A stretch of 64,000 bases of DNA from Pseudarthrobacter oxydans (GTDB lineage Bacteria > Actinomycetota > Actinomycetes > Actinomycetales > Micrococcaceae): contig NZ_CP139438.1 of NCBI RefSeq assembly GCF_034258515.1, positions 3,596,001 to 3,660,000 of the forward strand. Direction: 5' to 3'. Below are positions 2,577-3,972 of this stretch, in pieces (position 1 is the stretch's first letter; every line of letters begins with the position of its first letter). The notes under the pieces were generated by a model that saw only the letters and a list, made by a program, of their open reading frames with translations, had not been told where the DNA came from and did no database searches. A program made the position numbers and the translations under genes.

Positions 2577-3731
2577 CTATTTAGTGAGAGCCGACTCCCT
2601 CCGCTTGCGGGCGGAGGCGGCCAGCTGGTCCAGGACAGAGACCGAAACATCCCACTCCATGCAGGCGTCCGTGACGCTCTGCCCGTACACCAGCTCCGGT
2701 CGTCCCGCGGCGTGCCCGGCAACATCGAGGTTCTGTGCGCCGCCCACCAGGAAGCTTTCCAGCATGACACCGGCAATCGCCTGGGCCGAAGTGCCGCCGT
2801 CTTCCAGCTGGGCGCCGATCTCCATGGCCACTTCGGCCTGGCGGTGGTGGCTCTTGCCGCTGTTGGCGTGGCTGGCGTCGACGATGAGGCGGGGGTTCAA
2901 CTGCTTGCCTGCCAGCTTTGCCGAGGCAGCCTCCACGTCGGCGGCAGAGTAGTTCGGTCCCTTGCGCCCGCCGCGGAGGATGACATGGGCGTCCGGGTTT
3001 CCGGCGGTGGACACCAGCGCGGCCCGGCCGTCGCCATCAATGCCGAGGAAGGCCTGGGCGGCCGCCGCCGCGCCGCAGGCGTCGATGGCTACCTGGAGGT
3101 CGCCGTCGGTCCCGTTCTTGAAGCCGATGGGCATGGACAGGCCCGAGGCAAGCTGCCGGTGGATCTGGCTTTCGGTGGTGCGGGCCCCGATGGCGCCCCA
3201 GGAAATCAAATCCGCCATGTACTGCGGGCTGATCGGCTCGAGGAATTCCGTGGCCGTGGGCAGCCCCAGCGCGGTGACCTGCTGCAGGAAGCGCCGCGCG
3301 GTCCGCAGGCCGGTGACCATGTCGTGGCTGCCGTCCAGCCGCGGGTCGTTGATCAGGCCCTTCCAGCCCACCGTGGTGCGGGGCTTCTCGAAGTAGGTCC
3401 GCATGACGATGAGCAGGTCTTCCCGGTGCTTCTCGGCCTGGCTGACCAGCCGCCGCGCGTACTCCAGTCCCGCCTTCGGATCATGGATGGAGCAGGGTCC
3501 CACGATCACCAGCAGGCGGTCGTCCACACCGTCCATGATGGCGCGGACTTCGTCGCGTCCGCGTTCGACGACGTCCGCCGCCCGTGCGTCCAGCGGCAGT
3601 TCCGCGATGACTTCCTGGGGCGTGGGCAGCGCGGTGAATTCGCTGACACGCAGGTTGGACGTCGATTTTGCGGCTTCGGCGCCGGCGGCGGTCTGGGCTG
3701 TGGCGGATGCTTCTGCTGTTGCGGTGCTCAT
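2577..3731 (-). CDS. aroG: 3-deoxy-7-phosphoheptulonate synthase (DAHP synthase, AroG/F type)
   Basis: Catalyses phosphoenolpyruvate plus erythrose 4-phosphate to DAHP, the entry step of the shikimate pathway. The 384-residue protein has the class-I hallmarks LLVIVGPCSIHDP (about residue 75), a central KPRTTVGWKG segment, and the metal-binding DASHANSGK segment near residue 290. The first 28 residues are Ala/Ser/Thr-rich and poorly conserved in type. The ATG at 3731 is preceded by ACAGGA. A leader region of about 175 nt upstream holds a short aromatic-rich leader peptide and two hairpins, so expression is probably controlled by attenuation. Confidence 0.95.
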   Translation of the reverse strand: MSTATAEASATAQTAAGAEAAKSTSNLRVSEFTALPTPQEVIAELPLDARAADVVERGRDEVRAIMDGVDDRLLVIVGPCSIHDPKAGLEYARRLVSQAEKHREDLLIVMRTYFEKPRTTVGWKGLINDPRLDGSHDMVTGLRTARRFLQQVTALGLPTATEFLEPISPQYMADLISWGAIGARTTESQIHRQLASGLSMPIGFKNGTDGDLQVAIDACGAAAAAQAFLGIDGDGRAALVSTAGNPDAHVILRGGRKGPNYSAADVEAASAKLAGKQLNPRLIVDASHANSGKSHHRQAEVAMEIGAQLEDGGTSAQAIAGVMLESFLVGGAQNLDVAGHAAGRPELVYGQSVTDACMEWDVSVSVLDQLAASARKRRESALTK

Positions 3732-3793
3732 GTTCGGGTCCTGTTCCAGATGGGAAGCGGGCCCGGATCAGAACCCGCCGGAGAAACGGCGAA

Positions 3794-3876
3794 GGGCAGA
3801 GAATAATCTCTGCCCTGTTGGCTCTGAAGGAAAGTTGGATGCGTGTCAGTTAGACGCGGGCCCCTCCAGAGCCAAC
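3794..3876 (-). promoter_or_regulatory. Candidate attenuator hairpins upstream of the DAHP synthase gene
   Basis: Two perfect inverted repeats lie in the transcribed leader. The first pairs 3867-3876 with 3817-3826 (10 bp); its 5' arm is inside the leader-peptide gene, 3 to 12 nt after the aromatic codons. The second pairs 3807-3815 with 3794-3802 (9 bp, ATAA/TTAT loop). A CAGAG in the first hairpin's 3' arm could also pair with CTCTG in the second, so they may compete. No U-run follows the second hairpin, so it may act by pausing or Rho rather than as a classic terminator. Confidence 0.6.
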
Positions 3877-3905
3877 GAAAAATACGCATACCAACGGTTT
3901 GTCAT
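3846..3905 (-). CDS. Aromatic-rich leader peptide (19 aa) of an aroG attenuator
   Basis: A 19-codon frame from ATG (3905) to TGA (3846-3848) with the run Trp-Tyr-Ala-Tyr-Phe at codons 5-9. All three end products of the aromatic pathway are represented. It lies between a promoter and the aroG leader hairpins. The arrangement matches ribosome-mediated attenuation, where scarce charged tRNA stalls the ribosome in the leader. I recall a comparable leader-peptide attenuator upstream of a DAHP synthase gene in Corynebacterium. Function here is inferred. Confidence 0.7.
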   Translation of the reverse strand: MTNRWYAYFSLALEGPASN

Positions 3906-3912
3906 GCCTTGA

Positions 3913-3942
3913 ACCATAACCGCAACCTGTTGCCCCCCGCAA
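3913..3942 (-). promoter_or_regulatory. Promoter of the aroG leader transcript
   Basis: On the minus strand, TTGCGG (3942-3937) and TATGGT (3918-3913) are 18 nt apart and look like -35 and -10 boxes. The -10 ends 7 nt before the ATG of the leader peptide, so the peptide would be translated from the very 5' end of the mRNA. Confidence 0.5.
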
Positions 3943-3972
3943 AGTGTTACGCCGCATCGCGGGACGGGCGGC

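Follow-up and report, generated by a model that had tools for sequence, protein, structure and literature searches.

A candidate leader-peptide attenuator that may read three aromatic amino acids before the DAHP synthase gene aroG of Actinomycetes

DAHP synthase acts as the gate to the shikimate pathway. In Escherichia coli its isozymes are repressed through TyrR and TrpR (available sections of PMC11802643). Leader-peptide attenuation is a known type of mechanism, with one studied case found at a DAHP synthase gene: AroR of Corynebacterium glutamicum, a short aromatic leader that contains Phe-Tyr-Phe and precedes aroF (available sections of PMC11802643, PMC4046766, PMC6892785 and PMC3890552). 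AroR is described as acting by transcription attenuation and as responding to Phe, not Tyr (PMC11802643, same sections). In the accessible portion of their paper, Seliverstov et al. 2005 report no conserved structures upstream of phenylalanine/tyrosine operons of Actinobacteria (PMC1262725), and the C. diphtheriae transcriptome paper, in its accessible sections, has trp, ilvB and leu leaders only (PMC5784534). Literature searches, which covered few subscription journals, yielded no description of an aroG leader in Micrococcaceae or more widely, and four leader motifs were absent from the full texts searched. An earlier note on the DNA considered here had supposed that a mixed aromatic sensor is undescribed in Micrococcaceae, and these searches gave no source to the contrary.

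The locus lies on the minus strand of a 64,000-nt stretch of the Pseudarthrobacter oxydans genome, here called the window. Unlike in E. coli, one short RNA would here read Trp, Tyr and Phe jointly. The reading put forward is a ribosome-mediated attenuator of aroG that follows how much charged tRNA for Trp, Tyr and Phe is available and is most likely translational, with a probability of roughly one half. Sensing of aromatic amino acid supply by the leader is very likely; that the output is translational, with a stall leaving aroG open, is about an even call; and the element probably raises aroG expression when aromatic amino acids run short. The features that bear on the leader and its gene are as follows.

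3846..3905, minus strand: leader peptide gene MTNRWYAYFSLALEGPASN, ATG at 3905-3903, TGA at 3848-3846, 19 codons plus TGA
3879..3893, minus strand: sensor codons 5-9, TGG TAT GCG TAT TTT (Trp Tyr Ala Tyr Phe)
3937..3942, minus strand: -35 element TTGCGG, read from the sequence, 18 nt before the -10 element
3913..3918, minus strand: -10 element TATGGT, ending 7 nt before the leader ATG
2577..3731, minus strand: aroG, class I DAHP synthase (NCBIfam TIGR00034, Pfam PF00793)
3736..3747, minus strand: Shine-Dalgarno region of aroG, GGAACAGGACCC, with AGGA at 3742-3739

The earlier note had read a 19-codon WYAYF frame upstream of a DAHP synthase gene and directly behind a promoter. Both readings stand, the frame at 3905-3846 on the minus strand and the gene by its TIGR00034 and PF00793 matches. 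Its wording that the three aromatics come in a row is correct in that Trp, Tyr and Phe codons all fall within codons 5-9, but an Ala codon interrupts the run. As in a leader attenuator, Trp, Tyr, Tyr and Phe codons stand before DAHP synthase, frame, start and aromatic residues are kept across families, and translation is predicted. Of 975 frames of 10-40 aa in the window that begin with ATG or GTG, 6 reach four or more W/Y/F within five codons, namely two nested starts of the leader and four of one other frame; ten Markov-simulated controls gave 0-2 such frames apiece. The gene upstream of the leader encodes an acetyl xylan esterase-like hydrolase.

In 104 of 105 relatives a TANNNT box precedes the leader start by 6 or 7 nt, the other 38 scanned offsets together giving 9 hits, and TTG at offsets matching the -35 element (32-34 nt before the start) gives 94 hits in the same 105. 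A stricter consensus scan of the region returned zero promoters and zero terminator-like sites. Because the -10 box sits 6-7 nt from the leader start, transcription is predicted to begin at or beside the leader ATG and to yield a leaderless mRNA. Leaderless transcripts are common in the class Actinomycetes: they account for 33% of mRNAs in C. glutamicum (PMC3890552), and leaderless leader peptides occur in Streptomyces lividans (PMC8079986; available sections of both).

The Micrococcaceae set examined comprised 109 loci (L001-L106, L111-L113), the best matches plus 56 picked for divergence, taken from aroG matches in 40 of 59 and 178 of 395 genomes. The frame is present in 108 (105 at first pass, then L075, L083 and L111); in the one exception, L074, it is displaced by one base and the RNA arms are intact. 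The earlier proposal of an element resembling an attenuator, whose leader mixes Trp, Tyr and Phe codons, is supported, and the element is conserved. Twelve additional loci, some from the same genomes, also carry the leader, among them L128 with a frame shifted after codon 11. Sensor residues depart from the pattern in L083 (Tyr8 to Asn), L088 (Tyr6 to Gln, with Arg4 to Cys) and L111 (Phe9 to Leu), and Trp5 is lost in none of the 109. By the criteria used here a leader is also present in 78 of 80 named loci, being missing in L333 and L342.

Some loci invite separate mention. In L128 (genome G180) and the named locus L290, both of the window's genus group, the shift after codon 11 gives MTNRWYAYFSLCSGGARV, and L128 has one more base in the arm called arm1 below. 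In L074 (G338) the leader lies near locus positions 490-560, and its one-base shift falls after the aromatic run. These shifted leaders could be artefacts of sequencing, or else natural test cases. In 217 of the 395 genomes of the window's family the search with this class I DAHP synthase gave no match.

The leader core CGTTGGTATGCGTATTTTNCGTTGGCTCTGGAGG is near-invariant in Micrococcaceae down to its synonymous sites. It occurs once in the window's genome and is matched with at most three mismatches in 14 of 297 genomes of the order; named matches are mainly Arthrobacter, Pseudarthrobacter and Paenarthrobacter, then Psychromicrobium, Microbacterium, Brachybacterium and others. In four genes of the window TAT and TTT are rare (TAT 2 against TAC 40, TTT 3 against TTC 54). 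Since synonymous sites hardly vary although these codons are rare, selection seems to act on the letters of the leader beyond its residues alone. Could the RNA itself bind a ligand or protein, riboswitch-like, with the short frame incidental? Conservation letter by letter, rare codons included, would fit such an RNA. Across families, however, the letters change while aromatics, frame, start, stop and mostly an 8-nt spacing persist, and Rfam gave no match in the window at the gathering threshold (three far sub-threshold matches fall in 3700-3960, with E up to 10). This explanation is very improbable.

The idea that the element is specific to Micrococcaceae did not survive a wider survey, in which a DAHP synthase of the window's type was found in 75 of 297 genomes of the order and 59 of 296 of the class. 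Within the order, leaders upstream of aroG read RWYWRF (families f8 and f13), RWYWF, QYWF and RWRYF (f13), RWFTY (f11) and RWYAYFES (f19). In f38, RRYPYF, RWYWRF or similar precedes aroG in 15 of 18 loci, and in f22, AYWRF, YFWF or similar does so in 43 of 45. Two f22 genomes of genus g218, a putative Corynebacterium, have a WRFYF leader that includes Phe-Tyr-Phe. All three kinds of aromatic residue occur in 185 of 199 leaders, a set preselected for at least three aromatics within six codons, with f38 as the chief exception, 11 of its 16 leaders having lost Trp. Aromatic leaders before aroG are thus seen as a series over several families and orders of Actinomycetes, which probably includes AroR of Corynebacterium.

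The series has gaps. None of the 15 loci of family f4 has a frame upstream of aroG resembling the other leaders, and four of them (L110, L177, L184, L186) have TTG-started three-aromatic frames unlike the others. Most genomes of f4 (L109, L110, L176-L188) have a pair of class I DAHP synthase genes, and L110 and L186 have in common a TTG-started LYAYRYV frame, equally distant in both. A convincing leader was found in 0 of 9 f35 loci, the candidate in L214 being without a -10 box. By the criteria used here none was found in L175 and L189 (extra paralogues, genome G679), in L203, L208 and L216 of f38, or in L226 and L255 of f22. On reading, L139, L148 and L145 have two-aromatic leaders, and L162 was not parsable.

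Two oddities were met in the survey. The leader of L173 (f13), VTVQFYWRP, has an unusual residue order, and the duplex that would sequester its Shine-Dalgarno sequence (14 pairs, -28.8 kcal/mol) is the strongest among 20 listed. L325, in a record named Sporosarcina beigongshangi, a Firmicute, has an AroG 78% identical to that of the window and an aromatic leader upstream; the assembly is probably mislabelled or contaminated.

Two hairpins, P1 and P2, precede the gene, and the first of them starts within the leader frame.

3863..3876, minus strand: arm1, codons 10-14, 5' arm of P1
3817..3830, minus strand: arm2, 3' arm of P1, after the leader stop; alternative partner of a2
3793..3816, minus strand: P2, second hairpin, 3816-3807 with 3802-3793, 10 pairs

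P1 pairs 3876-3863 with 3830-3817 over 14 pairs, one of them G-U. The two hairpins announced by the earlier note are thus in place, and the 187-nt leader region folds with a z-score of -5.87, none of 200 shuffles being equally good. Both are well supported; a further helix P3 and the alternative arm2:a2 pairing, set out below, are supported less strongly. An alignment of Micrococcaceae upstream regions had been proposed as a check: it yielded conserved aromatic codons and exchanges in P2, but P1 is too invariant there for covariation, and 406 of 500 shuffles were as good, which makes the control uninformative within the family. L104 has both sides of P1 altered together, on reading. Between families the letters of P1 differ on both sides (for example T-A against C-G in core column 6). 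With defined arms, pairing within the own family was better than with other families in 79 of 80 leaders and beat every shuffle in 58, for a sample of at most 16 per family from the 197 leaders that have the core; a separate comparison gave 33 of 33. A cruder class-wide test with long, undefined arms gave 69 of 109, in a setting where arm2 positions were unreliable and the duplex program bridged long internal loops. P2 pairs better with its own partner than with a swapped one in 103 of 104 sequences, with G-C/A-T exchanges at several pairs.

Two observations concern the neighbourhood of the hairpins. The bases after P2 (3793-3781 in the window, and relatives), CTTCGCC[AG]TTTC, are among the best-conserved non-coding letters; pairing accounts for CGCC only, and the guess may be ventured that they form a sequence-specific RNA polymerase pause. 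A local hairpin inside the leader (codons 11-16, about 3873-3859) pairs GGCTC with GGGCC or GAGCC, and in f8, f22 and f38 GGCTCC with GGAGCC; seen on reading and in some folds, it could compete with P1.

Is P2 a terminator? Transcription attenuation, in which P2 (or P3) would terminate despite a poor U-run, or Rho would act while translation of the leader runs freely, and a stall would relieve the block, is the mode reported for C. glutamicum AroR (PMC11802643 and PMC4046766, available sections). Some f22 loci, such as L229 and L263, do have a U-rich run after P2. In the window, however, P2 is followed by CTTCGCCGTTTC, in which there is no U-run, and no hairpin with U-run overlapping an antiterminator was found. 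Four or more consecutive T come after the scripted hairpin in 1 leader of 105 from Micrococcaceae and in 4 of 41 from f22, so that the earlier remark on the missing U-run holds for Micrococcaceae, where P2 is not a classical terminator. The scan for terminator-like sites also found none. P2 shares no base with P1, arm2 or the alternative helices, which means that the switch helices found cannot open it, and the pairings arm2:a2 and b:SD (SD being the Shine-Dalgarno region) both lie downstream of it. Hairpin 2 as a Rho-independent terminator and main switch in the window is ruled out by the absence of a U-run and of bases common to the alternative helices. Transcription attenuation in general is improbable, with a terminator role for P2 kept open in some f22 loci by their U-rich tails. 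Possibly P2 is a pause hairpin.

P1 stands at a largely regular distance from the aromatic run. Counted from its first base, the last aromatic codon precedes the GGC core of arm1 by exactly 8 nt in 169 of 197 leaders, and in all 169 this codon is Phe; in the f1 set the spacing holds in 106 of 106. Among the other spacings are 17 leaders at 11 nt. In f22, a Trp codon comes 2-3 nt ahead of the core in 9 of 43 leaders; over the whole set, just 12 of 197 place an aromatic codon at the core or beyond it. When the A site holds the Phe codon, the codon in the P site begins 11 nt before the arm1 core. About 11 nt from the P-site codon is where a stem can first stand outside the ribosome, as the spacing at frameshift sites shows. 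The 8-nt spacing therefore suggests that a ribosome halted at the aromatic codons has the start of P1 immediately beyond its edge. Stalls at Trp5, Tyr6, Tyr8 and arguably Phe9 would spare the P1 core, and further movement would open P1.

Equilibrium folds under ribosome masks were computed for 11 sequences, with masks that assume a longer 3' reach of the ribosome than the spacing argument does. Masks for Trp5 and Tyr6 left P1 in 10 of 11 (L090 was mixed), the Tyr8 mask had a mixed outcome, and under the Phe9 mask (to nt 37) arm2:a2 replaced P1 in 9 of 11. The earlier claim that a stall covers the 5' arm of hairpin 1 (3876-3867) accordingly fits Phe9 and perhaps Tyr8, and fails for Trp5 and Tyr6, by masked folds, known ribosome geometry and the 8-nt spacing. 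With no ribosome, P1 formed in 8 of 11 sequences including the window, and a further helix, P0, in 2-3 only. With the ribosome parked at the stop codon, a case modelled by deleting the upstream part, arm2:a2 had genus means of 0.61-0.99 in ten genera.

That same note had named two hairpins. Further pairings, among them one with an arm behind the leader stop, the arm2:a2 helix and a pair of hairpins at the aroG ribosome site, are candidate parts of the switch.

3884..3895, minus strand: arm0, codons 4-8, partner of arm0'
3834..3844, minus strand: arm0', directly after the leader stop
3788..3791, minus strand: t (CGCC), partner of a over the first four bases of the latter
3774..3779, minus strand: a (GGCGGG), 5' arm of P3
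3768..3775, minus strand: a2 (GGTTCTGA), can take the place of arm1 as partner of arm2; in the window's genus it can also pair with the Shine-Dalgarno region
3753..3764, minus strand: b (GGGCCCGCTTCC), partner of a in P3 or, alternatively, of the Shine-Dalgarno region of aroG in P4

P0 joins arm0 and arm0'. Its post-stop bases vary by genus with the match kept (genus means of z lie between -2.0 and -4.2, mononucleotide shuffles being the reference), it is poor or missing in f8, f11 and 8 of 13 f13 leaders, and its equilibrium probability in the window is 0.00. An H-type pseudoknot of P0 and P1 was considered; as the helices cross and the arm0'-arm2 linker is short, the two are treated as mutually exclusive. 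Helices that exclude each other are also found at P1, which overlaps codons 10-14 and whose arm2 has a second possible partner in a2, with weaker controls: arm2:a2 has one TA to CG pair exchange in two genera, 76 of 500 shuffles were as good, and the own partner beat the swapped one in 78 of 104 sequences and in 16 of 33 comparisons between families. The TCTG of a2 is mostly retained in lineages whose P3 can do without those bases. Two-sided changes occur in t:a (18 of 500 shuffles as good) and in P3, GGCGGG with CCCGCC (1 of 500; here b was picked by best match, and this inflates the P3 count). P4, or b:SD, is better than swapped in 83 of 104 Micrococcaceae sequences and in 17 of 20 from f11, f13 and f19, and worse in genera g45, g47 and g28. 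The 104-sequence tests of swapping, a2 masking and site opening exclude L054, whose start codon is ambiguous.

The pairing of a2 with the Shine-Dalgarno region brings in another reading, with the classical sign and near to what the earlier note proposed. A stall at Tyr8 or Phe9 would cover arm1, arm2:a2 would form, and a2 would leave the Shine-Dalgarno region (GGGTTCTG with CAGGACCC in this genus), opening aroG. The best fold of the window is P1 with a2 paired to the Shine-Dalgarno region, and a2:SD is stronger there than b:SD (-19.4 against -15.2). In the window's genus, g1, a2:SD is 5.7 kcal better than swapped; the switch under the mask to nt 37 and the ribosome-free P1 fold, like a classical default-off state, agree with this reading as well. 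Against it, a2:SD beats the swapped pairing only slightly in g28 and g49 and falls behind it in the seven remaining genera, stalls at Trp5 and Tyr6 would fail to flip P1, and the last aromatic codon so rarely reaches the arm1 core, lying as a rule 8 nt before it. As a general sequestor a2:SD is ruled out beyond g1 by the swap test, and it holds in the window's own genus. The classical sign is unlikely, though less so than transcription attenuation.

For translational attenuation with P1 as the stalled state, the conserved spacing favours the order stall, P1, P3, open, and, where no stall occurs, arm2:a2, P4, shut. Transcription would start at the leader AUG, and the leader would be translated leaderless, to judge by the promoter spacing. 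When an aromatic tRNA is scarce, the ribosome would halt at codons 5-9, and P1 (arm1:arm2) would form just outside it. With arm2 occupied, a would pair with b (P3) during transcription, and the Shine-Dalgarno sequence of aroG would stay open. When all three amino acids are plentiful, the ribosome would pass arm1 and reach the stop, preventing P1; the free arm2 could then take a2, as folding of the downstream part suggests, and the released b would pair with the Shine-Dalgarno region (P4) and shut aroG. In some lineages P0 may hold arm1 away after the ribosome departs. P2, a fixed hairpin, may pause RNA polymerase so that the choice precedes synthesis of a.

Equilibrium folding does not settle output or sign. 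When P3 is forced, the ribosome site opens more easily in P1 + P3 than in P0 + arm2:a2 in 10 of 10 genus means, in g45 by only 0.3 kcal. When P3 is not forced and P1 is present, the site is harder to open than in P0 + arm2:a2 in five of ten genera including the window's. P3 costs 2.5-10.2 kcal/mol over the best P1-containing ensemble (genus means; 7.8 in the window), and because of this cost, opening of the aroG site would need co-transcriptional folding of P3. Masking a2 closes the ribosome site in 51 of 104 sequences only. In the window's genus a2 itself can close the ribosome site, and that would turn the sign round.

The boldest form of the proposal is an actinomycete-wide translational attenuator in which one leaderless peptide reads three aromatics, a fixed 8-nt spacing sets a stem at the mouth of the stalled ribosome, and a relay of pairings (0:0', 1:2, 2:a2, a:b, b:SD) runs past a pause hairpin to the aroG ribosome site; this is offered tentatively, at a little short of even odds. 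Should the series prove real, it would point to a widespread control of the shikimate gate in Actinomycetes, give a family to AroR (Phe-Tyr-Phe), its one studied case, and add an RNA element missing from Rfam. Its natural variation in letters, residue order and spacing would then provide tests of the proximity of stem and stalled ribosome.

How does the element compare with known ones? Translational T-boxes occur at actinobacterial ileS (PMC1262725). T-boxes bind tRNA directly and have no leader peptide, and in this they differ from the aroG leader. The trp, phe and his attenuators of enterobacteria resemble it in that a chain of mutually exclusive hairpins is set by the position of the leader ribosome; unlike them, the aroG element has no U-run terminator, three amino acids per leader, a predicted leaderless start and aromatic codons mostly outside the first stem. 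The trp and pheA attenuators are treated in the available sections of PMC11802643. In the LEU element of leuA in Actinobacteria, the leucine codons pair with the Shine-Dalgarno sequence and so close a pseudoknot (PMC1262725, accessible portion), whereas in the folds at aroG a separate segment, b or a2, pairs with it, and not the leader codons. AroR likewise places a short aromatic-codon leader upstream of a DAHP synthase gene, and as in an AroR-type element clustered aromatic codons stand before a class I enzyme gene at a fixed distance from a stem with a GGC core. The likeness runs through L250 of the putative Corynebacterium, whose leader MRMWRFYFSKAPEAETS has Phe-Tyr-Phe, the same F-x-x-A-P spacing, the P1 core and a P2-like hairpin, with a2 not seen on reading; AroR of C. 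glutamicum itself is likened by description. In contrast to AroR, the Micrococcaceae version combines Trp with two Tyr and Phe, may form P0, and has pairings extending to the aroG ribosome site. To judge by the literature searches, the novelty lies in the occurrence across several families and orders, in a sensor of three residues, in the constant spacing and in helices that lead to the ribosome site.
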